From: Candidatus Binatia bacterium
GTDB taxonomy: Bacteria > Desulfobacterota > Binatia > UBA12015
Length of the DNA: 64,000 bases
NCBI GenBank assembly: GCA_029243485.1
Contig: JAQWRY010000003.1
Location: 248,001 to 312,000 of the forward strand
Direction of reading: 5' to 3'
Part shown: positions 28,115 to 60,321 of the stretch, in pieces
How the letters are laid out: each line of letters begins with the position of its first letter
Position numbering within the stretch: the stretch's first letter is position 1
Notes under the pieces: model-generated
What the model was told of the DNA's origin: nothing
Seen by the model: the letters and a program-made list of their open reading frames with translations, nothing else
The model's database searches: none
Translations under genes and position numbers: made by a program

Positions 28115-29878
28115 TTGGGTTTGGGCGGAGTGGAAGCCTTCACGAGAGAGTCGAAAGAGCCGGGCGGGGGCAAAGCCCAAGCTGTCGGTAGTCGAGTTGG
28201 TGACCTGCTCCTGAGGCAGGGCGTCATCAGCGCGTCCGATCTTCGGGTGGCGACGGCTCGTCTTCGGGAAGCCGGCGGCGCCCTAACCACCTGGATGGTG
28301 AAGCTCTGCGGGCTTTCCGAGCAGGAGCTTCTGACCATCCTGCAGGAGGAGTACCACCTTCCGGTGGTCGACCCGGCGGCGCTCGATATCGCGCCTGAAG
28401 TCATCGACGTCCTCCCGGCCTTGCTGGCGAACAAGTACCACGTGGTTCCGGTGAGCCTCAGCCGAACGAGTCTGACGCTCGCGATGGCCGATCCGTCGAA
28501 CCTCGTCGCCATCAACGAGGTGAAGTTTCTCACGGGACTCGACGTTCGCGCGGCGATCGCCGGTCCGGGATCGATCGAGCGCGTGATCGAGCGGTACTAC
28601 GAGCACAGCGTCAACTATGGCGACGTTCTCTCCGAGCTCGGCAACGAGGAGATGCAGGTCGTTCAGGCCGAGGAAGAGCTCGACCTCAAACAGCTCGAGA
28701 AGGCGACGGAAGAAGCGCCCGTCGTCAAACTCGTGAACGCGCTCCTTACCGACGCAATCAAGAAACGCGCGTCCGACATTCACATCGAGCCGTACGAGAA
28801 GATACTGCGCGTCCGGTTCCGAATCGACGGCGTTCTGTACGAAATCATGCAGCCGCCGGTGAAGCTGAAGAGCGCGATCATCTCGCGCATCAAGGTCATG
28901 GCTTCGCTCGACATCGCCGAGCGCCGGCTGCCGCAGGATGGACGAATCAAGGTGAAGATCGGTCAGGGCCGCGAGATGGATCTTCGTGTCTCCACCCTGC
29001 CCACGCTCTTCGGCGAGAAGGTCGTTCTTCGGTTGCTCGACAAGGGTGGCGTGCAGCTGGATCTCAAGACGCTCGGCTTCGAGCAGGAGTCCCTCGACAA
29101 GTTCCAGGACGCGATCATGCGCCCGTACGGCATGATTCTCGTCACGGGGCCCACCGGGTCCGGGAAGACCACGACGCTGTACTCGGCCCTGTCGGAGCTG
29201 AACAAGATCACGACCAATATCTCCACCGCGGAAGATCCGGTCGAGTACAATCTCGTCGGAATCAACCAGCTGCAGGTGCACGAGGACATCGGACTGAACT
29301 TCGCATCGGCACTGCGCGCCTTCCTGCGACAGGATCCCGACGTCATCATGGTTGGTGAGATCCGTGACTTCGAGACCGCGGAGATCGCGGTCAAGTCGGC
29401 GCTCACGGGTCACTTGGTTCTGTCCACCGTCCATACGAACGACGCGCCTTCGACGGTCAACCGGCTGCTCAACATGGGCATCGAGCCGTTCCTGATCGCT
29501 TCGTCGGTGAACCTCATCATGGCGCAACGTCTCGCACGCGTGGTGTGTCCGAAGTGTCGCGAGCAGATTGAGATTCCTGCTTCGGTGATGATCGACATGG
29601 GCGTACCCGAGGAGGAGGCAAAGCCGATCCTTTCGTACCGCGGCAACGGGTGCCAGAACTGCGGCACGACCGGCTACCGCGGTCGAAGTGCATTGTACGA
29701 AGTGATGATTATGACCGATTTGCTGCGCGAGCTGATTCTCTCGGGGGCTTCGTCCGCCGAGTTGAAGCGCCAGGCGATGGAAGACGGGATGAAGACCCTC
29801 CGCCAAAGCGGCGTCGAGAAGATCATCGAGGGTATCACCACTGTCGAGGAAGTCATGCGCGTTAGCATGGCGGACTAA
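28115..29878 (+). CDS. pilB: Type IV pilus assembly ATPase PilB
   Basis: Cytoplasmic hexameric motor that powers pilus extension. The ~587-aa protein has an N-terminal MshEN/T2SSE_N domain (VGDLLLRQGVIS, LDIAPEVIDVLPALLANKY), then the GspE ATPase core: Walker A GPTGSGKTTT (345 on), the Asp-box ISTAEDPVEYNL, Walker B VIMVGEIRDFETAEIA and His box SALTGHLVLSTVHTND. A zinc site is formed by CPKC (~478) and CQNC (~513). Start is uncertain among TTG 28115, TTG 28121 and GTG 28130, after GGCGGAGAG. It leads the island in the myxobacterial/Geobacter order. Confidence 0.96.
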   Translation: MGLGGVEAFTRESKEPGGGKAQAVGSRVGDLLLRQGVISASDLRVATARLREAGGALTTWMVKLCGLSEQELLTILQEEYHLPVVDPAALDIAPEVIDVLPALLANKYHVVPVSLSRTSLTLAMADPSNLVAINEVKFLTGLDVRAAIAGPGSIERVIERYYEHSVNYGDVLSELGNEEMQVVQAEEELDLKQLEKATEEAPVVKLVNALLTDAIKKRASDIHIEPYEKILRVRFRIDGVLYEIMQPPVKLKSAIISRIKVMASLDIAERRLPQDGRIKVKIGQGREMDLRVSTLPTLFGEKVVLRLLDKGGVQLDLKTLGFEQESLDKFQDAIMRPYGMILVTGPTGSGKTTTLYSALSELNKITTNISTAEDPVEYNLVGINQLQVHEDIGLNFASALRAFLRQDPDVIMVGEIRDFETAEIAVKSALTGHLVLSTVHTNDAPSTVNRLLNMGIEPFLIASSVNLIMAQRLARVVCPKCREQIEIPASVMIDMGVPEEEAKPILSYRGNGCQNCGTTGYRGRSALYEVMIMTDLLRELILSGASSAELKRQAMEDGMKTLRQSGVEKIIEGITTVEEVMRVSMAD

Positions 29879-29891
29879 ACGTCTCGTCCCG

Positions 29892-29935
29892 TGCATCGCT
29901 TCGCTGCAGCAAAGTAGCGAGATGATGCATTCTTC
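29892..29935 (+). terminator. Imperfect hairpin after pilB
   Basis: TGCATC (29892-29897) with GATGCA (29924-29929) and inner TCGCT (29901-29905) with AGCGA (29916-29920) form an interrupted stem, followed by TTCTTCTT. It lies 14 bases after the pilB stop and would partly separate pilB from pilT. Confidence 0.5.
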
Positions 29936-30000
29936 TTGGCCTGAAGGGTCAAGCCCGGCGCGAGAACTGCCGAATCGTGGAGTAGGGTCACCCCGAGCGA

Positions 30001-30016
30001 TGGTACCGCGTTTGCA
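30001..30016 (+). promoter_or_regulatory. Sigma-54 type promoter in front of pilT
   Basis: TGGTACCGCGTTTGCA matches the -24/-12 consensus TGGCACG-N4-TTGCW with GG and GC ten bases apart. A transcript would start near 30027, about 40 bases before pilT. The -12 element overlaps the 8-bp palindrome GCGTTTGC/GCAAACGC at 30008-30027. Confidence 0.6.
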
Positions 30017-30068
30017 TAGGCAAACGCAGTGACGCACGCGACGGTGTGACCGGGGAGGTTTCGACAAA

Positions 30069-31172
30069 ATGCAGATGCACGAGTTGTTTCACGAGATGGC
30101 AGGCCAAGAGGCGTCCGACTTGCACATCACGTCGGGTGCGCCGCCGATGATTCGCGTACACGGTTCCGTGACGCCGCTGCCGTACGAACCGCTGAACTCG
30201 AATGACACGAAACAGCTCTGCTACAGCGTCCTTACTGAACAGCAGAAGAAGAAGTTCGAGGAAGAGAGCGAGCTCGATTTCTCCTTCGGCGTCGAGGGCC
30301 TTTCGCGTTTTCGTGGCAACTTGTTCATCCAAAAAGGTGCCGTGGGCGCGGTCTTTCGCTCGATTCCGCATACAGCGCCGCCGCTGAAGTCGCTGGGCCT
30401 TCCCGCGGCCGCCGAAGCGCTGATCAAGCTGCCCCGTGGTCTGATCCTGGTCACCGGGCCTACCGGTAGCGGTAAGTCGACGACGATGGCCGCCATGGTC
30501 GACGAGATTAACGAGACCCGGCAGGACCACATCGTCACGATTGAAGATCCGATCGAGTTTCTGCACAATCACAAACGCTGCATCGTGAACCAACGAGAGG
30601 TCTTCGCGGATACGCAGACTTTCGGGCAGGCGTTGAAGCACATTCTTCGTCAGGATCCGGACGTCGTGCTCATCGGCGAAATGCGAGATCTCGAGACGAT
30701 CGAGGCGGCGCTGACGATCGCGGAAACCGGTCACTTGGTCTTCGCGACGCTGCACACCAACTCGGCGGTCCAGACAGTCAACCGCGTGATCGACGTGTTT
30801 CCGGCGCACCAGCAGTCGCAGGTGCGTGCTCAGTTGTCGCTCGTGACGGAGGCGGTTCTCTCGCAGACCCTGCTGCCGCGCGCCGACGGCCGGGGTCGTA
30901 CGATGGCCTGCGAGCTGATGATTCCGAACCCAGCGATCCGGAATCTCATTCGTGAGGAGAAGGTCCATCAGCTCTACTCGCAGATGCAGGTCGGGCAGCA
31001 GAAGTTCGGAATGGTCACGCTCTCGCAGTCTCTCCTCGATCTCGTGTCCCGCAACATCATCACCGCCGAGACGGCGTTGCTGGCCGCGACGGAGCCCGAA
31101 GAACTGAAGAAGATGCTCGGCGTAGCTCGCGGGCCGACCGAGCAGGCCGGCCGCATGGTGCTGGCAAAGTAG
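30069..31172 (+). CDS. pilT: Twitching motility ATPase PilT
   Basis: Retraction motor of the type IV pilus, 367 aa. Hallmarks: N-terminal HITSGAPPMIRVHG, Walker A GPTGSGKST (Gly130 on), EDPIEF, Walker B VVLIGEMRDLETIEAAL, His box ETGHLVFATLHTN, and the PilT-specific AIRNLIREEKVHQL near residue 300, which is required for retraction. It follows pilB with a 190-base gap that contains its own sigma-54-like promoter, so extension and retraction motors may be separately regulated. Confidence 0.97.
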   Translation: MQMHELFHEMAGQEASDLHITSGAPPMIRVHGSVTPLPYEPLNSNDTKQLCYSVLTEQQKKKFEEESELDFSFGVEGLSRFRGNLFIQKGAVGAVFRSIPHTAPPLKSLGLPAAAEALIKLPRGLILVTGPTGSGKSTTMAAMVDEINETRQDHIVTIEDPIEFLHNHKRCIVNQREVFADTQTFGQALKHILRQDPDVVLIGEMRDLETIEAALTIAETGHLVFATLHTNSAVQTVNRVIDVFPAHQQSQVRAQLSLVTEAVLSQTLLPRADGRGRTMACELMIPNPAIRNLIREEKVHQLYSQMQVGQQKFGMVTLSQSLLDLVSRNIITAETALLAATEPEELKKMLGVARGPTEQAGRMVLAK

Positions 31173-31181
31173 GCGTACGCG

Positions 31182-32405
31182 ATGGCTCAATTTGCATATC
31201 AGGGGCGGACCGCCAGCGGGAAGACGTTGCGCGGCAACATGGAAGCGCCGAGCCGTGAGGCGGTGATCAACCGTCTTCGCGCGCAGCGCATCCAGCCGAT
31301 CACGAACAAGATCAAGGAGCGCGGCAAGGGATTCGATCGCGAGATAACGATCCCGACCTTCGGGAGCGCCGTGAAGTCCAAAGACGTCGTGATCTTCACG
31401 CGTCAGCTCACCACGATGATCGACGCCGGCATGCCGCTCGTCCAGATCCTCGACATCCTCGGGACGCAGACGGACAACAAGGTGTTCGGGAAGCAGGTTC
31501 TGGCGGTGAAGGAGGCGGTCGAATCCGGGGCTACGCTGTCCGATGCCCTGCGGCTCTTCCCGAAGACGTTCGATGAACTCTACACCAACATGGTCCAGGC
31601 GGGTGAGATCGGCGGCATTCTCGATACCATCCTGGGACGGCTCTCCATCTACATGGAGAAGATGATCTCGCTGAAGCGCAAGATCAAAGGTGCAATGATC
31701 TATCCGGCGACGATCATCTCGGTCGCCATCGTCGTGACCCTGATCCTGCTGGTCTTCGTCATTCCGGTCTTCGCGGAGCTCTTCGGGAGCTTCGGGCAGG
31801 CACTTCCGCTGCCCACTCAGATCGTGATCAACATCTCGAACTTCACTGTGGCCTACCTGCACGTGCTCGTCGCGGCGGTCGTCATCACGGCCATCGTGAT
31901 TCGGCAGACCTACCAGACCGAGAAGGGCCGATTCATGATCGACAAGTTCATGCTGCGGCTTCCGATCCTGGGTGAGATGCTGCGAAAGGCATCGATCGCA
32001 CGGTTCTCGCGGACACTCGGCACCCTGGTGTCCTCGGGTGTTCCGATTCTCGACGCTCTCACCATCACGGCCCGTACCGCTGGGAATAAGGTCGTCGAGA
32101 AGGCGGGCTTCATGGTTCGTGAGAGCATCAGCCAGGGCCGCACGATGGCGGAGCCGCTGACGCAAAGCGGAGTCTTCCCGCCGATGGTGTGCCAAATGAT
32201 CGGCGCCGGTGAGATGACCGGAGCGATCGATCAGATGTTGCAGAAGATCGCCGACTTCTACGAGGAGGAGGTCGACAACGCCGTCAACAACCTGACCGCG
32301 CTGATGGAGCCGCTCGTCATCGTGATTCTGGGAACGATCATCGGTGGTCTCGTCATCGCGATGTACCTGCCGATCTTCCAGCTCGGTTCGTTGCTCTCGA
32401 CATGA
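31182..32405 (+). CDS. pilC: Type IV pilus inner-membrane platform protein PilC
   Basis: A 407-aa T2SS/T4P platform protein to which the motors dock. Two repeats of the GspF domain are visible, each with [15 protein letters not shown]- or [15 protein letters not shown]-like openings, and three membrane segments (around residues 170-195, 225-245 and 375-400). The start lies nine bases after pilT. Its stop overlaps the start of the sigma-54 activator by four bases, so the regulator is translationally coupled to the machinery. Confidence 0.97.
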
Positions 32406-34612
32406 CGCTCACTTGGACAAAGGACACCGGAGTTCAGTCGCCGCTTCGCGATCGGCTGCGGGTGCTGCTCTTCGCGCGCGTCCTAATCATGAGCGTGTTC
32501 CTGGCCGGGGCCGGTGCGCTCTGGTTTGCGAAGCCTGATGTCACGCGTGCGCTGCTCGGAGACGTGACGTTCTCGGTTCTCGCCTTGGCGTATCTCGGAA
32601 CTGTCTTGTCGGCGGCTTTGGTTCGCACCGTTGCGAGGCCGGGTTGGCTCGCCTACCTGCAGATCGTTTTCGATGTCCTCCTCATTACGGGCGCGCTCGG
32701 CGCGATGCGCGGGGCCGATGGTCCCATGGCGCTCCTGTACGTTCTGCCGATCGCGAACGCGGCCGGTCTCCTGATGGTGCCCGGTGCGGTGGCGGCGGCG
32801 GTCGCTTCAAGCGTGGCGTACGGTGCGCTGTTGCTACACGGACAGCACGTGGTGCTTGCCGTCGGCGGGTTGCCGACGAACGACTTGGCTTGGCCGATCA
32901 CGCTGGCCGCGATCTGCTTCGGACTCACCGCCGTCGGCGTGGGTGGGGTTGCTCGCCGGCTCGAAGTGGCCGAAGGCCAGCTCGAGAATCATCGGGATGA
33001 AGTCGGGCGCCTCGAAGAGATGCATCGCGTCCTGGCGAATGGGCTCGAGTGCGGAATCCTCGTGACGGACTGCGAGGGGCGCGTGCGCTCGGTGAATCCT
33101 GCGGCCCAGCAGATTCTCAGCTTGCCGGTGGGCTCGATTCACGGGCGCGAGATCTCCTGGCTGGTCCCTCTCCTCGAGTCGGCGGAGGCCGCGGAGTCGC
33201 GCGGCCATCTCGAGTGCTCGCAGCGTGTAGGGCCGGGCGAGTCGCGACGCCTGCGGATTGGTCGCAGCGTCCTGCGGGACACCTACGGGAACCAGATCGG
33301 CGAGATCGTCATGCTGCAAGACGTCACGCGCATCGAGCAGCTAGAGGCGCGGCTGGCGGAGGACGAGGGCGCGCCCCTGGGGCTCGGGGGCGACGAGGAT
33401 ACGCCCGCCGAGAACGAGAACGATAGTGAAGACGGTGCGACCCCCGGTCCGGGGGTGGAGGACGGCCTCATCGGTACGTGCGCCGCCATGGATCAGGTCT
33501 CGCGCTTGATCGACAAGGTTGCGGTGACCGACGCCACCGTCCTGGTGACGGGCGAAAGCGGTACGGGAAAGGAGCTCGTCGCGCGCGCCGTGCATCGCAG
33601 GAGTGCGCGCGGGGACGGCCCCTTCGTCGTGGTCAACTGCGGCGCGATCCCGGAGTCGCTCATCGAGAGCGAGCTCTTCGGACATGTGCGGGGCGCCTTC
33701 ACCGGCGCCGTCGCGGACCGGGCAGGCCTCTTCCGACGAGCACACGGAGGCACGATCTTCCTCGACGAGATCGGCGAACTCTCGCCGGCTCTTCAAGTGC
33801 GACTCCTTCGCGTGCTGCAAGACCACAAGGTCCTGCCGGTCGGAGGTAATGCGGCGGTTGATGTCGATGTGCGAGTCGTTGCGGCTACGAACCGGATTCT
33901 GGAAGATCTGGTGAAGGCCGGCGATTACCGAGAGGATCTCTACTACCGGCTCGCCGTCATCTCGGTCGACATTCCGCCTCTGCGCGAGCGGGGCGGCGAC
34001 CTGTCGGTCCTGATCGAGCACTTCCTGCGGGTCGGCGCCGCTCGGCACGGGAAGAACGTCCGCTGCGTGAGCGCCAAGGCGATGTCGCTCCTTCTCAAGC
34101 ATCCCTATGCGGGCAACGTGCGGGAGTTGGAGAATGTGATCGAACACGCGATCACTCTTGCGGACCGCGATACCGTCCAGGACGTTGATCTCCCGGAATC
34201 GATCCGTGGGGTCTCGCCCGTTCGGTCGGTGCGCCCCAGCGCGGCGGAGGCGACCGCCTCGGCGTTGGACGGTAGCTTGCCGCCGTCGGAAGACCTCGCG
34301 GCCGCCTCAGGTCCCGATCCTTGGGCATCCGAGGAGGCAGGGCTGGGCGATGGACCGGGTGCGTCGCTCCGCTTGCCCATCGACGACGGCGAAGGAGCGA
34401 GCCTCGACGAGCAGCTCGCGACGCGAGAGAAGCAGATGCTCCTCGCGGCGTTGGATCGCGCGTCCGGAGTGAAGAAGAAGGCGGCGGTGCTGCTGGGGAT
34501 CAACTACCGCTCGTTCCGACACCGTCTTCAGAAGTACAGCCTCGATGCGCACAGCGACTCTGTGCTGAGCCGGGCCGACGGCGGCACTCTGCTGCGCGAA
34601 ATGAAGCCCTGA
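32402..34612 (+). CDS. Membrane-bound sigma-54 activator: PilS-like sensor fused to PilR-like output
   Basis: A 736-aa one-component regulator. Residues ~20-190 hold about six membrane segments as in PilS; ~200-315 form a PAS domain ([22 protein letters not shown]) with PAC-like [16 protein letters not shown]. An acidic linker (320-355) leads directly into the AAA+ domain: Walker A GESGTGKE (384-391), sigma-54-contacting GAFTGA (431-436), [11 protein letters not shown] Walker B and arginine fingers in [10 protein letters not shown] Fis-type helix-turn-helix ends the protein (~676-716). There is no HisKA, HATPase or receiver. It occupies the place held by separate pilS and pilR in pilB-pilT-pilC-pilS-pilR-pilA clusters. 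Confidence 0.93.
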
Positions 34613-35157: not shown

Positions 35158-35517
35158 ATGTTTAAGGCGAAGAACGAGAAGGGCTTTACGCTCATCGAAC
35201 TGTTGGTGGTCGTCGCGATCATCGGCATTCTGGCGGCAATCGCAATTCCGCAGTTTTCTGCGTATCGCTCGCAGGGTTTCAACGCTCGAGCGTCGTCTGA
35301 TCTGCGCAACCTGGCAACGGCCGCCGAGGCCTATTTCGCTGCGAATGCAGCGTACACCTCGGACGTGACCAGCCTGACCGGCTTCAAGCAGTCGCCTGGA
35401 GTGGACATCATCCTGACGCCGGCGGGCCAGTTCTTTACGGCCACGGCGAACCACGCGAACGGAGACAAGACCTACGACTGGAACTCCGAGAACGGTGGTT
35501 TGCAGAACGCGCCGTAA
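35158..35517 (+). CDS. pilA: Type IV major pilin PilA
   Basis: A 119-aa prepilin. The leader MFKAKNEKG is cut before Phe, and FTLIELLVVVAIIGILAAIAIPQF is the canonical N-terminal helix (given here in two parts: FTLIELLVVV and AIIGILAAIAIPQF), with Glu5 in place. The globular part is short (~85 residues), has no disulfide pair, and ends TYDWNSENGGLQNAP. ATG 35158 follows AGGAGG by 11 bases; a longer open frame upstream has no ribosome site. The short pilin and its position recall Geobacter-type PilA, but the C-terminal domain is present. A related C-terminal fragment exists at 60063-60284. Confidence 0.96.
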   Translation: MFKAKNEKGFTLIELLVVVAIIGILAAIAIPQFSAYRSQGFNARASSDLRNLATAAEAYFAANAAYTSDVTSLTGFKQSPGVDIILTPAGQFFTATANHANGDKTYDWNSENGGLQNAP

Positions 35518-35563: not shown

Positions 35564-35598
35564 GATGGCGTCGCTCCCCCCGGGGCGACGCCATCTTC
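35564..35598 (+). terminator. Terminator after pilA
   Basis: GATGGCGTCGC (35564-35574) pairs perfectly with GCGACGCCATC (35585-35595), an 11-bp stem, followed by TTCGC. It lies 47 bases after the pilA stop and would limit read-through into the membrane glycosyltransferase-like gene, keeping pilA expression high. Confidence 0.7.
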
Positions 35599-35615: not shown

Positions 35616-37277
35616 GTGGCATTTGAGGAGGCAGGCGCCGTGCGGAACACAACGAAGAGCATCACCGGTCTAGCGGTGCTTTTGGTTGTGGGGGCAGCGC
35701 TCCACTTCTTCGGCGGAAACATCGCCGACCCCGACCTCTGGGCGCACCTCCAATACGGGCGTGCGATCTTCCAGGGGGAGGGCCTCCCGACGGTGGAGGT
35801 CTACTCCTATACCGCGGCGGGCGCGCCCTTTTACGATCACGAGTGGCTAACGGACTACCTCACGGCCGGCGTGTTCGATACCTTCGGGGCCACGGGGCTC
35901 GTGGTAGGGAAGCTTCTAGTTCTGGCCGCGATGTTGGTTCTGCTGATCGACACCGCCCGAGTGCTGGGTGGTCTGCTCGGCCCAGGGCGCAACGTTCATC
36001 CCCTGACGGCCGCCGCTGTTCTGGTTCTCGGTCTCGCCGTGATCGGACCCGGCGCGACGTTCCGAGCGCAACTGTTCACGATGACGTTCCTCGCACTCGA
36101 GGGCTGGCTGCTCACGCGGGCGGAGGTCCGCGCGCGGCAAGAGGCGAACGCGGCACGGGTGACCTGGGAGATCTTGGTCCTTCCCCCACTTCTGCTGCTG
36201 TGGGCGAACCTGCACGGGGGCTTCCTGGTCGGACTCGGGATGTTCGGCCTGTACGCGGTTTCGGTCGGGATCCAGGAGATCATCGCCCTGCGCACCGGGC
36301 GATCCGTCGGCGAGGCCGTTCGGCGCATTGGCCCGTTCGCGGTCGTCTGCGTGGCCGCGGTCCTTGCGCCGATCGCGAATCCGTACGGGATCGAGCTGTA
36401 TACCTATCTCGCACGCACGCTCGACATGCACGGTCAGATTTCGGAGTGGTATCCGGTCGCGCTCTTCTCGGGCCACTTTCTGCGGTTCAAGATCATGGTC
36501 CTCCTCTCGGCCCTCGGCATTGCCGTGGTCTGGCCGGGATGGAGCGAGCCTCGTGCGCCGGGCGCGGCGTGGCCCGCCTTCGCGTGGCGCGTCGCCTTCT
36601 ACGCATTCGCCGCGTACATGGCCTTCAAGCATCAGCGCCACACCGTCCTGTTCGGGATCGTCGCGACGCCTTTCCTCGTCGTGTCGATGGAGCAGGTGCG
36701 CCTTCTGGCGGTAAGGCGCTTTCCGGCGCTTCGACCGCGAAGGCCCGTCTTCGCAGTACTCGCCGCCGGTGCGGCCTCGGTCGCGCTCTTTCAGGTGGTG
36801 GGATTCGCCCGTCAAATCGACGAGCACGGCGGGGCGATCCGCTACGGACGACTCGATTACCCGGTCGATGCCTTGGGCTTCCTTACCGAGCACGGATTCG
36901 ACGGGAATCTGGCGATGCCGTTCGAGTGGGGGGCCTATGCGATCACGAAGATGGCGCCCGAGTCGCGGGTCTTCATCGACGGACGCTTCGAGGCCGTTTA
37001 CCCGAAGCAGGTCATCGACGACTACTTCGCGTTCATGAACGGCACGGCCGGATGGGAGCGACTCCTCGACGAGTATCCCACCGACATCGTCGTCGTGCAG
37101 CGTTGGCGCAACATCCATCCACGGCTTTTTGCGCGTGACGATCTGCATTATGTGTACTCCGATCCTGCTTCTCTCGTGTTCGTCCGGCCGGGCGTGCGCA
37201 CCGACGAGGCGCTCAGGCGACTCGCGTCGGTCGAGGACCGGAACGACTTCCCGCGTCTGGCGACCTACTTCCCATGA
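35616..37277 (+). CDS. GT-C-like polytopic membrane protein next to pilA
   Basis: A 553-aa protein with roughly ten membrane segments. The first outer loop has acidic motifs ADPDLWAHLQYGR and YDHEWLTDY, as in GT-C glycosyltransferases and related uncharacterised proteins. The C-terminal ~120 residues form a soluble domain (NLAMPFEWGAYAI, SRVFIDGRFEAVYP). GTG 35616 has GGGGAGAG upstream; ATG 35601 is an alternative. It begins the three-gene overlapping set after pilA, as pilin oligosaccharyltransferases do in Pseudomonas, so pilin glycosylation is a possible but unproven role. Confidence 0.75.
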   Translation: MAFEEAGAVRNTTKSITGLAVLLVVGAALHFFGGNIADPDLWAHLQYGRAIFQGEGLPTVEVYSYTAAGAPFYDHEWLTDYLTAGVFDTFGATGLVVGKLLVLAAMLVLLIDTARVLGGLLGPGRNVHPLTAAAVLVLGLAVIGPGATFRAQLFTMTFLALEGWLLTRAEVRARQEANAARVTWEILVLPPLLLLWANLHGGFLVGLGMFGLYAVSVGIQEIIALRTGRSVGEAVRRIGPFAVVCVAAVLAPIANPYGIELYTYLARTLDMHGQISEWYPVALFSGHFLRFKIMVLLSALGIAVVWPGWSEPRAPGAAWPAFAWRVAFYAFAAYMAFKHQRHTVLFGIVATPFLVVSMEQVRLLAVRRFPALRPRRPVFAVLAAGAASVALFQVVGFARQIDEHGGAIRYGRLDYPVDALGFLTEHGFDGNLAMPFEWGAYAITKMAPESRVFIDGRFEAVYPKQVIDDYFAFMNGTAGWERLLDEYPTDIVVVQRWRNIHPRLFARDDLHYVYSDPASLVFVRPGVRTDEALRRLASVEDRNDFPRLATYFP

Positions 37278-38851
37278 GTCCGGCTCGGGGGGATTTCGGA
37301 GGACCGCGGTGGATCGGCGCGTGTCTCACGGCACTTGCCGTTGTTGCGCAGGGACTCTGGCTCGCGCGGGAGTATCCGAACGCGCATCTGGACGCGGATC
37401 TCCTCTCCTATCTCGCGTACTACCGGGACTGGGCGGCGGGGGCGGCGACGCCGTTCGGGTACACGGTGCCGAAGGTATTGCCCGTGGCTCTGTTCGGACC
37501 GACCGGGAGTCCGGAGGTCTCGTCTGCGCTGACCCTCTGCGCCGCGGCGGTCGGTGGAGCCTTCGTGTTCTTGCTGGCAGCGAATCTCTTCGGGACGGCC
37601 GCGGCCGTGCTGGCGGCGGTGGCGTACGTGTTCGATCCTCTCCGCAGTATCCTCACGCTTCGCTCGAGCGCGGATCTTTACGTGGGCGTCGGGCTGCTAG
37701 CGGCGATGTATGCTCTTTCGATTCGCGCAGTGGTCTGGGCAGGGGTGGCGATCTTGGTCGCGGCTTTGGCCAAGCCGTTGGCGCTCGTCTGTGGTCTCGC
37801 GGTGCTGGTCGTGCCGAAGATCACTCTGTCTCGACGGCTCGTCGCGGTGGCGATCCCGTTCCTCGCCATTCCCGCGATCTCGGCGCTCGACGCGGCCCTG
37901 GACGGGCGGCCGATCCTCGCGGGCATTCTCTCATTGGGCCTTCCGGACGAGCACAAAGCGTTCGTGCACGTCGCGCAGGGCCCGCCACTGGGCTGGCTCG
38001 ATTCGCTCGAGATGCTCTTCGTCGACTGGTTCGGGAGATTGCTGTTCGCGCGGACATGGCCCCTGGTCTTGATCGGCGCGGCGCTCTACGCGGTGCGGTC
38101 GGTTCTTGCCTGGCGCGCGGGTGCTTCCGACGCTACGAGCGAATCGCGGTCCGGGGTGGATCCGAGGCTCGTCGTCCTGACGGTTCCGCTCCTCCTGACC
38201 GGCGCCTACGTCGGTCTCGCCCTGTTGCAGCCCTTCGTTTTCTTCACCCGCTTCTTCTGGGTGCTGTCGGCGGCGCTCACGATTCTCGCCGCGTACGGTG
38301 CAACGGCGGTCGCCTCGGCTGCGCCGCTGCCGCGCTGGGGACGGGCGGGCCTCGTCACGATCTTTGCCCTCGCGCTTCTCGCCGACCGATCCGATGACTT
38401 CCAGTGGAGGAAGCAGCTGATGTTGGATCCGTTCGAGACGCATGCAGCACTTGCCTATCGCGGCGTCGAAGTGATCGCCGATGACAGCCGTTGTGAGGGG
38501 GCCGCAGTCGTTCCGCTCGCCTATCTGCCCCTCGCCGCGTGGCGGGTACCGGCGAAGCTCCGGCGCGGCGATCTCTGTGCGATCGAGGATTGGGCGGCGG
38601 GTCGAGGCTGTGCGCGTCCGACCTGTGTGCTCGTCATGCCGGCCGCGCCGACCACGCAGGCGGCACGGGAGGCGTCGAATCGTTTGCTCGAGTCCGGGTG
38701 GGCGGTCGAGGTGTCGGACGGACAAGGCGCGTTGGTGCGCGCCACTGCGGGTCAATCGACCGCCGCCGAGGAGAACGCGGAGACGGTCGCACCCGCGCAG
38801 TCGCCGGAGCCGTCGTGGTTGGAAGCAGAGGGAAGGGGAGCCCATACATGA
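37274..38851 (+). CDS. Second GT-C/ArnT-like polytopic membrane protein
   Basis: A 525-aa protein with about ten hydrophobic segments and an early outer-loop motif NAHLDADLLSYLAYYRDW that resembles the acidic catalytic loop of GT-C enzymes. The segment around residues 115-130 (VAYVFDPLRSILTLRSSADL) fits the second conserved loop. The C-terminal ~120 residues are soluble and contain four Cys. It overlaps the preceding gene by four bases (ATGA) and the following PAP2 gene by four, so all three are translated together. Donor and acceptor unknown. Confidence 0.7.
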   Translation: MSPARGDFGGPRWIGACLTALAVVAQGLWLAREYPNAHLDADLLSYLAYYRDWAAGAATPFGYTVPKVLPVALFGPTGSPEVSSALTLCAAAVGGAFVFLLAANLFGTAAAVLAAVAYVFDPLRSILTLRSSADLYVGVGLLAAMYALSIRAVVWAGVAILVAALAKPLALVCGLAVLVVPKITLSRRLVAVAIPFLAIPAISALDAALDGRPILAGILSLGLPDEHKAFVHVAQGPPLGWLDSLEMLFVDWFGRLLFARTWPLVLIGAALYAVRSVLAWRAGASDATSESRSGVDPRLVVLTVPLLLTGAYVGLALLQPFVFFTRFFWVLSAALTILAAYGATAVASAAPLPRWGRAGLVTIFALALLADRSDDFQWRKQLMLDPFETHAALAYRGVEVIADDSRCEGAAVVPLAYLPLAAWRVPAKLRRGDLCAIEDWAAGRGCARPTCVLVMPAAPTTQAAREASNRLLESGWAVEVSDGQGALVRATAGQSTAAEENAETVAPAQSPEPSWLEAEGRGAHT

Positions 38852-39888
38852 GCCAAGGGTTGGATCTGGCGATCGAACCGGGCGCCGAGCGGTCCAGTGA
38901 GGGACTCCGGTCGTACCTGACCGGTGCTTCGGCCTGGACCTGGCGTTGCCTTGCACTGGTGGGCGTCTACGTGGCGGTCGGCTACGCCGCGGCGCTCTTC
39001 CTGGGGCTGCCGCTGCACTGGCCGATCGCGCACCTCGTTGCGCAGATTCAGCTCGTTGCGGTGGTGGCGTACGGCTCGCTCGCTCTCGCATACGCACTCG
39101 ATCGCTCCATCGGTCCGCGTGTGCGGTTGGGGGATCTCGCCGCGCGATTGCTGTCACCGCGAATCTTCTTCGAGTTCGTCGCCGCGATGGTCGCGGTGCA
39201 CGTGACCCTGGTCGTCTTCGTCAACTTGAAGCAGTACGTGCCCGCGCTGAATCCGACGCTGTACGACTCGCCGTTGTGGCGCCTCGACGCCTGGCTGCAC
39301 TTCGGTGTCGAACCCGCTGTGTGGGCGACTGAGTTCGCGGCCGAGTACGGATTACTACCGTTCCTCGATCATGCGTACCTCGTGTTCTTCCCGGTGCAGC
39401 TTCTGGTGCCGCTTCTCTTCCTCTTTTCGACCCGGCTGCGGCCGGTTCGCGGGACGTTCTTCTTCGCGTACTGCCTGCTGTGGATGTTCGGTAGTCTCAT
39501 CTACATCGTTTGGCCCGCGCTCGGCCCCATCTATTACTGGCCCTCGCGATTCGTGTGGCTGGATCTCGCCCCGTACGCGCAACACCTGCAGTGGACACTC
39601 ATCCAGGATTACGCGCAGTTCCGCTCCGGCCCCGAGTACTACGCCGTGAAGCTCTACTACGGGGTCGCGGCCCTCCCGAGCTTGCACGTCGGCATGTTCA
39701 CGCTCTTTGCTCTCGCGACCTGGAGATGGCGTGGGATGTCGGCCGTCTTGTGGGTCCTCACAGCGATCACGTTCGCCGGCTCGCTCGCGCTGGGATGGCA
39801 CTACGCGGTGGACGGGTACGCGGGGGCGTTCATGGCGTGGGGCGCATGGCGGATTGGTCGGCTCATGGCGCCGCAGACAGAATCCTGA
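38848..39888 (+). CDS. PAP2/AUR1-like membrane phosphatase or phosphotransferase
   Basis: A 346-aa protein with six or more membrane segments and a PAP2 active site in two parts: LPSLHVGMF with the catalytic His, and LGWHYAVDGYAGAF with the second His and Asp. This arrangement is that of inositol-phosphoryl transferase (AUR1)-like PAP2_3 proteins and polyprenyl-phosphate phosphatases. Start ATG 38848 follows GGAAGGGGAG and overlaps the previous stop. With two GT-C-like partners it may process a polyprenyl-linked sugar donor. Confidence 0.85.
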   Translation: MSQGLDLAIEPGAERSSEGLRSYLTGASAWTWRCLALVGVYVAVGYAAALFLGLPLHWPIAHLVAQIQLVAVVAYGSLALAYALDRSIGPRVRLGDLAARLLSPRIFFEFVAAMVAVHVTLVVFVNLKQYVPALNPTLYDSPLWRLDAWLHFGVEPAVWATEFAAEYGLLPFLDHAYLVFFPVQLLVPLLFLFSTRLRPVRGTFFFAYCLLWMFGSLIYIVWPALGPIYYWPSRFVWLDLAPYAQHLQWTLIQDYAQFRSGPEYYAVKLYYGVAALPSLHVGMFTLFALATWRWRGMSAVLWVLTAITFAGSLALGWHYAVDGYAGAFMAWGAWRIGRLMAPQTES

Positions 39889-39936: not shown

Positions 39937-40725
39937 GTGGCGCCTGAATATCTCATATGGGGCGCCGTGCTGTATCTGGGCGCGGCCGTCGGAAGCTTCC
40001 TGAACGTGGTGATCCACCGCGTTCCGCTCGGTGAATCCGTCGTGAGCCCGCGGTCTCGATGCCCGTCGTGTCGCAGCACGATCGCCTGGTACGACAACAT
40101 CCCGGTGTTGAGCTGGGTACTGCTGCGAGGGAAGTGTCGAGGGTGCGGCACGGGTATTTCCGCTCGCTATCCGTTCATCGAGTTCATCACGGCGTTGATC
40201 GCGGTGGTTCTGTTCGCCCGACATGGACCGACACCCGCCTTCGGGGTTCAGTTCGTTTTCTCGTGCGCGCTGCTTGTCATCGCGTACATCGACCTCGATC
40301 ATCAGATCATTCCGGACAAGATCTCCTTGCCCGGGATCGTGCTGGGACTCGCCGCGGCGATTCCCGCCGGGATGCCGGCCATCACCGATGCGGTTCTCGG
40401 CGTCCTCGTCGGCGGCGGCTTGTTGCTCACTGTCGCGTGGACCTACGAACGTTGGACCGGGCGGGAGGGCATGGGGGGCGGGGATGTTAAGCTCCTTGCG
40501 ATGATCGGCGCGTTCCTCGGCTGGCAGGGTGTGCTGCTCACTTTGTTGCTTGGTTCGCTTCTAGGGTCGGCCATCGGGATCGCCCTCATGGCTTCGCGCG
40601 GAGCGGATCGGAAGCTCGCGATCCCGTTTGGACCGTTTCTTTCGCTGGGAGCCCTCGTGACGCTCTTCTGGGGCCACGCGATTGTGCGCTGGTACATTTC
40701 CTACGCCGGGTTCTCGCAGATCTGA
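39937..40725 (+). CDS. pilD: Prepilin peptidase / N-methyltransferase PilD
   Basis: A 262-aa A24-family aspartic protease of the inner membrane that cleaves prepilin leaders and N-methylates the new N-terminus. The cytoplasmic zinc/methyltransferase domain has CPSC (~42) and CRGC (~67) pairs; the catalytic Asps are in DLDHQIIPD and MGGGDVKLLAMIGA. It opens LGAAVGSFLNVVIHRVP as expected. GTG 39937 is the start. It supplies the protease for pilA and both minor-pilin sets around it. Confidence 0.97.
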   Translation: MAPEYLIWGAVLYLGAAVGSFLNVVIHRVPLGESVVSPRSRCPSCRSTIAWYDNIPVLSWVLLRGKCRGCGTGISARYPFIEFITALIAVVLFARHGPTPAFGVQFVFSCALLVIAYIDLDHQIIPDKISLPGIVLGLAAAIPAGMPAITDAVLGVLVGGGLLLTVAWTYERWTGREGMGGGDVKLLAMIGAFLGWQGVLLTLLLGSLLGSAIGIALMASRGADRKLAIPFGPFLSLGALVTLFWGHAIVRWYISYAGFSQI

Positions 40726-42238: not shown

Positions 42239-43272
42239 ATCCGAAGGCCGAATCGGGTCTCGTGTTGTTGAGCCTCGTTCTTCTCCTCGCGCTCCTCGGT
42301 CTCGTGACCGGGGCGAGCCTCTGGTTTACACGCGCCGAGCTCTGGGCGGCGGGGCGCGCGCGGTCGGAGCTGCAGGCGGCGTACACGGCGGAGGCGGGCG
42401 TGCGGCACGGCCTAGCGCTGCTCGCTCCGGATGTCGACCTCACCGCGCTCGCGGAACGCTCCGTCGACGCGCTCGCGGCGCCCGACACACCGGGGCCGTG
42501 GCCCATCGCGGGAGGAGGGTGGGTTGCGTTTCCCGGCCCGCCGTTTGGCTACGGGCTCGAGGTCGCTGCTGCAGGCGACACGCGTCGGGTCGTCGTGCGA
42601 TCCTCGGCGACCGCGGTTCGGGACGCGGCGCTCGTCGCCGTGGCCTCGGTGGCCCTTGCGGCGGAGCCCTACGCACCGGCGACGCTTGTCCTGGGCGGCG
42701 GCCCCCTCAGCTTCGAAGCGGCGGCGCTCGGAGGTTCCGAAAACCGGCTGGTCACGATCGTGGGGAGTCATGCGAACCGGGTGGCGGCGATCGGGACTGC
42801 GTCGTCGGTGGAACTCGAAGCCGCGATCGAATCCGCCGAGGTAGCGGGCGCGGGCATCGAGGGAGACGGCATGGCCACGGTGCGCCGGTTCCCGCTCTCC
42901 CGATTCGCTCTTCGGAGCGGCCTCGACGAGTGGGCGCCCGACGTGCTGAATGCGTCGGTGGGTGCCCGCGGCAATCCGGTCGCGCTGCGCATCCGCGGCG
43001 GCGTCGTGCCGAGGTTGCTCGGGGCGGGGCTCCTATACGTCGCGGGGGATCTCGACGTGATGGGTGAGGTCGACTTCGCGGGTGTCGTCTTCGTCGAGGG
43101 GCAAGTGCGAATCGGCGGGGAGTCCTGTCGACTGGACGGGATGTTGTGGGCGCGTGAGGTGGCCTTCTCGGGTGCGTGTCGCGTTGCGTTCGATGCCGCG
43201 GCGGTGGCCGATGCTGATCGGGCTCTTCGCCTTCCTCGCCTACCGGTCCTGACCGGCCTCGCCGGTGGCTGA
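42235..43272 (+). CDS. Minor pilin, GspK/PilX-like (set 1)
   Basis: A 345-aa protein with a pilin-type leader MNPKAESG followed by LVLLSLVLLLALLGLVTG. Position 5 after the cut is Ser, not Glu, as is usual for GspK and PilX, which cap the pseudopilus tip. An AYTAEAGVRHGLALL helix follows, the PilX/GspK signature. The size matches GspK (~330) better than PilX (~190). ATG overlaps the previous stop. Its 3' end overlaps the convergent SGNH gene by 33 bases. Confidence 0.82.
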   Translation: MNPKAESGLVLLSLVLLLALLGLVTGASLWFTRAELWAAGRARSELQAAYTAEAGVRHGLALLAPDVDLTALAERSVDALAAPDTPGPWPIAGGGWVAFPGPPFGYGLEVAAAGDTRRVVVRSSATAVRDAALVAVASVALAAEPYAPATLVLGGGPLSFEAAALGGSENRLVTIVGSHANRVAAIGTASSVELEAAIESAEVAGAGIEGDGMATVRRFPLSRFALRSGLDEWAPDVLNASVGARGNPVALRIRGGVVPRLLGAGLLYVAGDLDVMGEVDFAGVVFVEGQVRIGGESCRLDGMLWAREVAFSGACRVAFDAAAVADADRALRLPRLPVLTGLAGG

Positions 43273-44427
43273 GCCGAGAGCCAGCCTCGGACGGAGCGCG
43301 TCGGCGATCGCCTGGTGCCCTACTACGGTGAGATGCTTCCAGCGCGGGTAGTAGGTGCGCTCGCGCCCCGTGTGTCCGCGCGATTCACGTCCGAGCAGTT
43401 GTGTTGCGTCGATCGTGGGAATGTCCTCGGCCTCGAGTGCGCGCCGGAGCACCTTCTGTGGGCGCCGCCAATCGATGCCGTTCTCGCGCAGTTCCGCTCT
43501 CCACTCCGGATCGTTGCTGGCCTCGACCTGCCAAGGATCGGGGAGAATCAGAACGATGGGCTCCGCGCCCATGGCGCGCGCGCGCCGCCCGACTTCGACG
43601 AGGAGGCGCGCCGTGATGCGAAGCGCAGCGGCGTCCGCTTCGGTCACGTCCGCGGTGTACACGCTGCGCATCGGGCGCCCACCGAGATGCCAACGCTCGC
43701 GGCCGCCGGGTTTCGGTTGGTTCTTGTCCACCGTCGTTTCCGCGAGTGCGTTCAGGATTGCGGAGTGGCGCATGGCGCCGCGATAGATCTCGATGCCGAC
43801 CTGGAGAAGGGCCGACGCTTCCACCGGAACGCCCTGCACCTGGAGTGATCCGTCGTGGGTAAGTTGGAACCACGGCTTGGGAAATTGCCAGGTCCCGGCG
43901 TACACGTTGTCGTGCAAGTCGTTGCCCATGTACGCGGTGATCACGACGACGTCGGGTCGATAGGGCGCGACGACCTGCTCGAGCGTGAGGAGTTGTTGGT
44001 CGGTGCCGTAGCCGATGACGGCGAAGTTCAGGACTTCCGTCTCCGCGTCGTCGAGCCGCGCGGCGAACGTTTCATCGTCGCCGACGCCGTCTCCCCAGGC
44101 CTGACTGTCGCCAAGTATCGCGACCCGCGTCTTTCCCGGCGTGCGGTGCATGGGGTGGTTGGGGCCGCGCTGGCCGGCTTCGTTGATCGTCACCCACGTG
44201 AGAAACTCGTCACCCCCGTAAGGGCCGGCGATCCCCGCTCGATTGCGCCAACCCCGATCGCGATCGGGCTCGGCGAAGTAGACGCGGTTTCGCATGTGCG
44301 GACGGTACTCGAACCCGATGGCACGGGCGGCGAGCTCGCCGACGCCGATACCCAGTATGAGGCCGAGAGTGATCAACAGAGCCCGTGTTCGCCAGCGCGG
44401 CGCGCAATGACCAATCCGATTAGACAA
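43240..44427 (-). CDS. SGNH/GDSL-like hydrolase with N-terminal membrane anchor
   Basis: A 395-aa protein anchored by one hydrophobic segment (residues ~16-35), catalytic domain outside the membrane. The nucleophile block is RVAILGDSQAWG with Ser108; ITAYMGNDL supplies the Asn of block III; and a C-terminal WKHLTVVGH provides the His. This is the esterase family that includes AlgX/AlgJ-like and O-acetyl esterases. Start is TTG 44427. It is convergent with minor-pilin set 1 and divergent from set 2; a role in surface glycan trimming is possible. Confidence 0.8.
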   Translation of the reverse strand: MSNRIGHCAPRWRTRALLITLGLILGIGVGELAARAIGFEYRPHMRNRVYFAEPDRDRGWRNRAGIAGPYGGDEFLTWVTINEAGQRGPNHPMHRTPGKTRVAILGDSQAWGDGVGDDETFAARLDDAETEVLNFAVIGYGTDQQLLTLEQVVAPYRPDVVVITAYMGNDLHDNVYAGTWQFPKPWFQLTHDGSLQVQGVPVEASALLQVGIEIYRGAMRHSAILNALAETTVDKNQPKPGGRERWHLGGRPMRSVYTADVTEADAAALRITARLLVEVGRRARAMGAEPIVLILPDPWQVEASNDPEWRAELRENGIDWRRPQKVLRRALEAEDIPTIDATQLLGRESRGHTGRERTYYPRWKHLTVVGHQAIADALRPRLALGSATGEAGQDR

Positions 44428-60062: not shown

Positions 60063-60284
60063 CTACGGAGCGTTTTGCGGTCCACCGTTCTGGGAGTCCC
60101 AATCGTACGTCTGTGTTCCGCTCGCATGCGTGGAGGCGGGGGTGAACGATGTTCCGGCCGGCATCACCGTGATCGTGACTCCCGGTGATTGCCGCAAGCC
60201 GTTCAGCGCGGAGAGGTTCGCAGTGTAAACCGCGCGCTCGGCGAAGTAGGCCTCCCGAGAGGAGGCGAGGTCGCGCTTGTGGGA
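60063..60284 (-). pseudogene. Truncated pilin C-terminal cassette (silent or decayed pilin)
   Basis: Between in-frame TGA (60285-60287) and TAG (60063-60065) the minus strand encodes 73 codons whose product aligns without gaps to the end of PilA (35158-35517). By hand 39 of 71 residues are identical, including EAYFA, QSPGV, PAG and the terminal TYDW/NGG/QNAP. Both end exactly at the same residue. There is no start codon, leader, or N-terminal helix, and none is found upstream before the adjacent gene. It therefore cannot make a pilin itself. It sits between the MaoC gene and a DUF2939-like gene. Confidence 0.85.
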
Positions 60285-60321
60285 TCAGACTCGCAACCCC
60301 GGTGACGCGTTGCGGCCATGG

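Follow-up and report, generated by a model that had tools for sequence, protein, structure and literature searches.

What do three genes accomplish that lie between the gene of a type IV pilin and that of its prepilin peptidase? The question is raised by a stretch of 64,000 nucleotides from a Candidatus Binatia bacterium (GenBank assembly GCA_029243485.1, contig JAQWRY010000003.1, positions 248,001 to 312,000, forward strand), hereafter the window, in which the interval from pilA to pilD holds only gtA, gtB and a PAP2 gene. The first-pass annotation had described three genes overlapping by four bases in this place, which is borne out by the open reading frames, as both the gtA/gtB and the gtB/PAP2 junction consist of a 4-base ATGA overlap. 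The first of these genes starts 98 bases behind the end of pilA, and 48 bases separate the end of PAP2 from the start of pilD. The arrangement is best explained by a cassette for pilin modification in which gtA acts as the transferase; we judge this reading fairly probable, and the pilus of this bacterium may accordingly be sugar-coated. The reading builds on residues that are invariant in 71 of 71 aligned members of the gtA family and on the fixed position of gtA behind pilA, and because of both the observation is not regarded as chance.

Predicted folds of the cassette proteins

Translation from the GTG at 35616 gives a gtA protein of 553 amino acids. With the in-frame ATG at 35565 as start the product would reach 570, but the alignment of two close relatives begins at the GTG. 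No Pfam model matched gtA at E values up to 1, nor did any NCBIfam model. Screening of all 71 proteins of the family gave isolated hits by five models, each to one member and with E values from 1e-5 to 8e-3: four from Pfam (O-ag_pol_Wzy, a transporter and two without known function) and one from NCBIfam. The gtA family is covered by no curated Pfam or NCBIfam model. Searching the sequences of solved structures brought no useful match; two leads were discarded as chance, namely the matches of the gtA profile to two Scone sequences among those of solved structures (E 2e-4 and 3e-4, with no single stretch passing alone) and to 6fnp_A (0.19).

The structure model of gtA, built on the 71-row alignment, reached a predicted local distance difference test value (pLDDT) of 93.1 and a predicted template modeling score (pTM) of 0.93. 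In a Foldseek search of the PDB with this model, the top ranks went to the DPY19 C-mannosyltransferase (9e-7), ArnT (4e-6), AglB (9e-6) and PglB (1.4e-5). Alignment by VIA-align placed the catalytic subunit of oligosaccharyltransferase (OST) on top (8age_A, Z 22.2, root-mean-square deviation 4.7 Å, 449 aligned residues), followed by PglB (5ogl_A, 17.9), AglB (5gmy_A, 17.2), PMT (16.6), DPY19 (14.7) and ArnT (14.6). Additionally, residues 410-525 resemble the C-terminal globular domain of AglB (3vu0_A, Z 8.3, root-mean-square deviation 2.9 Å, 108 aligned). The comparison with OST and ArnT that the first-pass annotation had proposed thus returned GT-C matches, although gtA aligned best with STT3/OST rather than with ArnT or PMT by VIA-align. 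The GT-C fold is shared with ArnT and PMT/PMT_2 as well, from which gtA is set apart by these lower Z scores and by its missing Pfam match.

The ADPDLW motif occupies residues 37-42 of gtA, with its DPD between the model helices 4-32 and 39-52. Residues D38, P39, D40, W42, E76, R150, W196, H200, P256, R341, W438 and R457 are identical in all 71 rows. That gtA and gtB are GT-C proteins is supported by their predicted folds, while fold alone says nothing on activity. The earlier suggestion that the acidic outer-loop motifs point to GT-C enzymes has accordingly held, the motifs being conserved and both models showing GT-C folds. The identity of D38, D40, E76 and R341 across such a wide family, together with the fold, also argues against gtA being a pilus assembly helper which, like TfpY-type accessory proteins, performs no glycosyl transfer. 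TfpY-like proteins are moreover described as approximately 244 amino acids long and of another architecture (excerpts of PMC11841053), and this alternative appears improbable.

The resemblance to STT3 calls for a closer comparison. The STT3 profile PF02516 does not match gtA. Compared over the full length with 11 WWDYG-type STT3 proteins of the class, the gtA profile obtained a score of 48.9 (pairwise E 9.5e-5, probability 58.7), which exceeds 40 column shuffles (maximum 27.2) and the reversed profile (20.5); these shuffles are a lenient control because the membrane-helix pattern is not kept. This alignment pairs R341 with an invariant Arg and sets FEWGAY..RVFIDGR against WWDYG..DGG in an ambiguous motif register. 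The literal WWDYG is absent from gtA, which features F/Y-x-W-G/A at residues 436-439 (F/Y in 69, W in 71 and G/A in 70 of 71 rows), the acid of this block being D or E in just 29 of the 71. STT3 proteins further have an acidic residue in outer loop five (SVSE/TIXE); a possible counterpart in gtA is I-x-E/D-W at 275-278, with E in 55 and D in 16 of 71 rows. The C-terminal domain of gtA alone scored 16.5 against STT3 and thereby stayed within 100 shuffles (mean 15.9, maximum 26.1), which counts against the proposed transferase role. The 12-row alignment A1 followed a different, weak alignment path to STT3 (probability 7, E 0.005), and the profile comparison of gtB with the STT3 set of the class gave a probability of 13. 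As these three comparisons are weak, the STT3 link rests mainly on predicted structure. Similarities with STT3, PglB and AglB comprise the GT-C fold over nearly the whole of gtA and an acidic pair in its first loop, whereas the STT3 proteins compared have open frames of 810-1224 amino acids against the 553 of gtA. We regard gtA as STT3-like in predicted structure and do not class it as an STT3.

The second gene, gtB, encodes 525 amino acids with DADLL at residues 40-44, of which D40 and D42 are invariant in 9 of 9 rows. Its model, based on this 9-row alignment, has a pLDDT of 75; Foldseek ranked ArnT first (1.2e-5), and VIA-align AglB/PglB (Z 23.1) followed by ALG12 (22.6). PMT_2 was matched at E up to 0.1 by 3 of the 9 gtB homologues, the gtB of the window itself showing a weak YfhO match. 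A profile comparison of gtA with gtB yielded a probability of 3. Among 148 genomes of the class, gtB occurs in 12, and 11 of these belong to the order of the window; the twelfth (G090) carries it on a contig with a pilA match approximately 12 kb off. Within the class, gtB is hence almost confined to the cassette. The PAP2 protein (346 amino acids) exceeds the cut-off of PAP2_3 PF14378 clearly (93.8 bits versus 27) and keeps PSLH and GWHYAVD. From these motifs it is a candidate polyprenyl-(pyro)phosphate phosphatase; within the cassette it is optional.

Taken as a modification cassette, the three proteins would add sugar to PilA on the outward-facing side of the inner membrane. In such a scheme, gtA would move a polyprenyl-linked sugar or oligosaccharide onto PilA waiting in the membrane, gtB could use a polyprenyl-phosphate donor to extend the glycan by a sugar, either on the lipid or on the pilin, and PAP2 might hydrolyze the released polyprenyl pyrophosphate or trim a lipid intermediate.

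Conservation in the order and comparison with Pseudomonas

Of 14 genomes available from the order, 12 contain gtA and 11 contain gtB. The gene directly after pilA is gtA in the window as well as in each of the 11 further genomes that carry it, so the position claimed by the first-pass annotation proved to be conserved across the order (12/12). The constant gene of the cassette is gtA, gtB and PAP2 being optional. The shortest version is pilA-gtA-pilD (G006). G004 shows pilA-gtA-gtB-pilD with PAP2 absent, and G003 the same across two contigs; in G002 the contig stops within gtB, and in G005 the cassette is split between contigs. An additional gene is located between PAP2 and pilD in G001 (TPR repeats) and G012 (PMT_2). 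In both genomes of genus g5 (G007 and G008) pilD comes right after pilA and the cassette is missing, so that the slot is naturally empty. The assembly of one of the two is just 63% complete, but its pilA-pilD locus is intact. A record titled Klebsiella pneumoniae (CAMBZJ010000021.1, L086) also carries this pilus cluster and is most likely a mislabelled metagenome-assembled genome. The window's own genome (G000) possesses a second gtA homologue of 31% identity (C52:183042-184508; 9039-10505 in L048), and the 20 kb around it showed no similarity to the pilus proteins of the window.

Between pilA and gtA of the window a hairpin of 14 pairs with a tetraloop is predicted (z -2.68 against shuffles, weak T tail), which a pattern-based terminator scanner did not call. 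Strong GC-rich hairpins follow pilA in all 12 pilA-gtA loci that were folded from the order, and also in 2 of family f17 (z -1.70 to -5.48). This layout recalls the pilin-accessory cassettes of Pseudomonas, in which an accessory gene follows pilA behind a terminator and several types occur, including two glycosyltransferases, the pilin enzymes TfpO and TfpW (PMC11841053). Another pilin-modifying enzyme is PglL (PMC3643930, in part). As in the Pseudomonas aeruginosa cassettes with TfpO, TfpW or TfpX/Y/Z, an accessory gene and a hairpin stand behind pilA here, and the slot is occupied by varied types.

TfpO itself is a Wzy_C-type enzyme. The slot considered here differs from TfpO cassettes in holding GT-C lineages and PAP2 and no Wzy_C. 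The analogy to the PilO/TfpW slot of Pseudomonas drawn by the first-pass annotation therefore stands for the layout, while membership of PilO/TfpO does not: it was rejected, along with PglL, since neither gtA nor gtB gave a Wzy_C match at E up to 1. A true PilO/TfpO ligase of the Wzy_C, PglL type would share the position behind pilA, but gtA is without any Pfam match and gtB shows just the weak YfhO one, the best structural matches of gtA are STT3-type GT-C enzymes, and the only weak Wzy match in the family (1 of 71 members) concerns a different Pfam family (PF14296, E 0.002). The likelihood of such a ligase is considered negligible. In literature listings on pilin glycosyltransferases and accessory proteins, and in parts of PMC11841053, PMC3643930 and PMC11127046, no description of the present cassette was recognised. 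Likewise, titles and abstract openings contained nothing on Binatota with pilin or on TMTC with bacterial pilin glycosylation.

The gtA family and the slot behind pilA in other bacteria

Matches to the gtA profile were obtained in 90 of the 148 class genomes. In family f17, pilA and gtA are adjacent in 5 of 6 genomes, and the sixth (G143) has both on different contigs. For G142, G144 and G147 the adjacency was read in the sequence, with pilD next, and for G145 and G146 it was taken from coordinates; the gtA copy of G142 is broken. Outside the class, gtA follows pilA in two genomes of a Desulfobacterales search, G148 and G247. In G247 the surroundings of the two genes comprise three TPR proteins, one PMT_2 and one PMT protein, each exceeding its Pfam cut-off. 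In a Lentisphaerae record (G149), gtA is located behind two pilin-like genes and holds one stop. On a quick tree of 75 gtA rows, which comprises three very long branches and resulted from a short search, the pilin-adjacent label requires 4 changes, at least 3 of them forced by starred branches.

A corresponding survey addressed the slot behind pilA, using 20 pilA loci from other families that were hand-picked to span families from the 97 genomes of the class in which pilA was matched; gene calls and counts of transmembrane segments were made by a simple script. The gene next to pilA has at least 8 predicted transmembrane segments in 6 of 14 countable loci compared with 8 of 173 other called genes (Fisher p 1.2e-4), whereby four of the 14 pilins (L331, L334, L335, L337; none with an 8-segment neighbour) were added by hand and are still within the 173. 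Directly behind pilA are a TMTC protein in G090 (above the cut-off), a PMT_2-like protein in G085 (just under it) and YfhO-type proteins in G127, G122 and G134 (above) as well as in G121 (under). Two genes further on follow two TMTC-type proteins in G087, one of them above the cut-off, and a PMT protein in G082. The loci with TMTC-, PMT- or YfhO-like proteins are L321, L323, L325, L328, L329, L330, L332 and L339. TMTC protein O-mannosyltransferases, represented by TMTC_DUF1736 proteins at this site in G090 and two genes further on in G087, are absent from the cassette of the window. In G075, G106, G105 and G096 pilD directly follows pilA. In the remaining loci the next gene has fewer than 8 transmembrane segments, pilA lacks a neighbour on its own strand, or the contig ends there.

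More tentatively, as a possibility that we hold with some doubt, gtA may represent an unnamed bacterial family of STT3-related oligosaccharyltransferases that spans several phyla and was captured here for dedicated pilin glycosylation. The pilA site would then be an exchange slot in which STT3-, TMTC-, PMT- and YfhO-like GT-C enzymes replace each other. If true, STT3-like GT-C enzymes would join TfpO, TfpW and PglL as modifiers of bacterial type IV pilins, and a large uncurated family of membrane proteins would gain a testable function. Protection from pilus-targeting phages has been proposed for pilin glycosylation in Pseudomonas (sections of PMC11841053); accordingly, a GT-C exchange slot could help uncultured bacteria to diversify their surfaces.

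Several further observations weigh against a role in pilin modification. A pilin neighbour was present at 15 of 79 named gtA loci, 13 of which belong to f1 and f17. With flanks of 1.5 kb, the fraction was 3 of 18 class loci (a count that misses L063, pilin-adjacent when its sequence was inspected), 2 of 10 loci of a further set, 1 of 25 from the Desulfobacterales search and 0 of 29 from the Lentisphaerae-class search. Many pilA loci of the class have an empty slot or no membrane enzyme in it. The hairpin is present in the gtA-less G008 without any accessory gene and hence marks the end of pilA and not the cassette. Three genomes of the order lack PAP2, and 2 of 8 aligned homologues (G001, G005) retain neither PSLH nor the H..D residues. 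Besides, gtA is no PilO/TfpO (Wzy_C) enzyme, and inspection of 17 PilA rows by eye revealed no Ser/Thr that separates gtA-bearing from gtA-less genomes.

Moreover, a sister clade of gtA has a gene of the S49 signal-peptide-peptidase type (sppA-like) as its neighbour: this holds for 6 of the 7 loci retrieved from families f5-f8 (L282-L286, L288) and for neither of the 2 from f9 and f16. Because of this clade the gtA family is not pilin-specific; therefore, it presumably acts also on something else, or on exported proteins generally. The same observation favours the alternative that the cassette serves to make or modify a different surface glycan, e.g., an exopolysaccharide, lipid A or a lipoprotein glycan, and stands near pilA through co-regulated surface functions. 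Most gtA relatives examined are located away from pilins, gtA homologues form multi-copy arrays in other families, and GT-C enzymes of the ArnT type are known to modify lipid A. Nevertheless, nothing but the three cassette genes lies between pilA and pilD in the window, and the order of pilA and gtA is fixed in every gtA-bearing genome of the order and recurs in other groups. This explanation is thus regarded as rather unlikely.

Pilus cluster, PilA and genome setting

The window is part of contig C3 of genome G000 (6.5 Mb, 88 contigs, 97.5% complete). The cassette belongs to a single type IV pilus cluster composed of pilB, pilT, pilC, a pilS-pilR-like fusion, pilA, gtA-gtB-PAP2, pilD, pseudopilins and a PilY1-like gene (Table 1). 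Names of the genes were taken from reading the sequence and were checked against Pfam for pilA, PAP2 and pilD.

Table 1. Features around the cassette, with positions in the window and the evidence for each.
Feature	Position	Strand	Evidence
pilB, pilT, pilC, pilS-pilR-like fusion	28115..34612	+	Open reading frames upstream of pilA; order shared with relatives
pilA, candidate major pilin, presumed acceptor	35158..35517	+	N_methyl PF07963, 40.5 bits
Hairpin 3' of pilA, terminator/attenuator candidate	35564..35595	+	Folding versus shuffles
gtA, predicted GT-C membrane protein with C-terminal domain	35616..37277	+	Predicted model, Foldseek, VIA-align, family alignment A4
gtB, second predicted GT-C membrane protein	37274..38851	+	Predicted model, structural matches
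PAP2_3 protein	38848..39888	+	PF14378, 1.5e-26
pilD, prepilin peptidase (Peptidase_A24)	39937..40725	+	PF06750, PF01478

Genome G000 contains 7 matches to PF02397, the family of initiating sugar-phosphate transferases, and a lone PF02516 match elsewhere (C86). Judged from these matches, none of which is tied to the cassette, G000 likely makes lipid-linked sugars.

The C-terminus of PilA, GGLQNAP, is invariant in 12 of 12 rows. Further pilA homologues of G000 are located at C1:268403-268729 (from position 11) and C47:103186-103524. The minor pilin cluster also includes, on the opposite strand (43240-44427, minus), a putative SGNH-hydrolase-like gene, judged by eye from its GDS motif. Additionally, the window holds a pilA-like fragment at 60066-60296 on the minus strand, which covers model positions 43-119 (E 3.8e-26), contains one TGA and has no prepilin N-terminus; located far from the pilus cluster, it is either a silent pilin cassette or a remnant.

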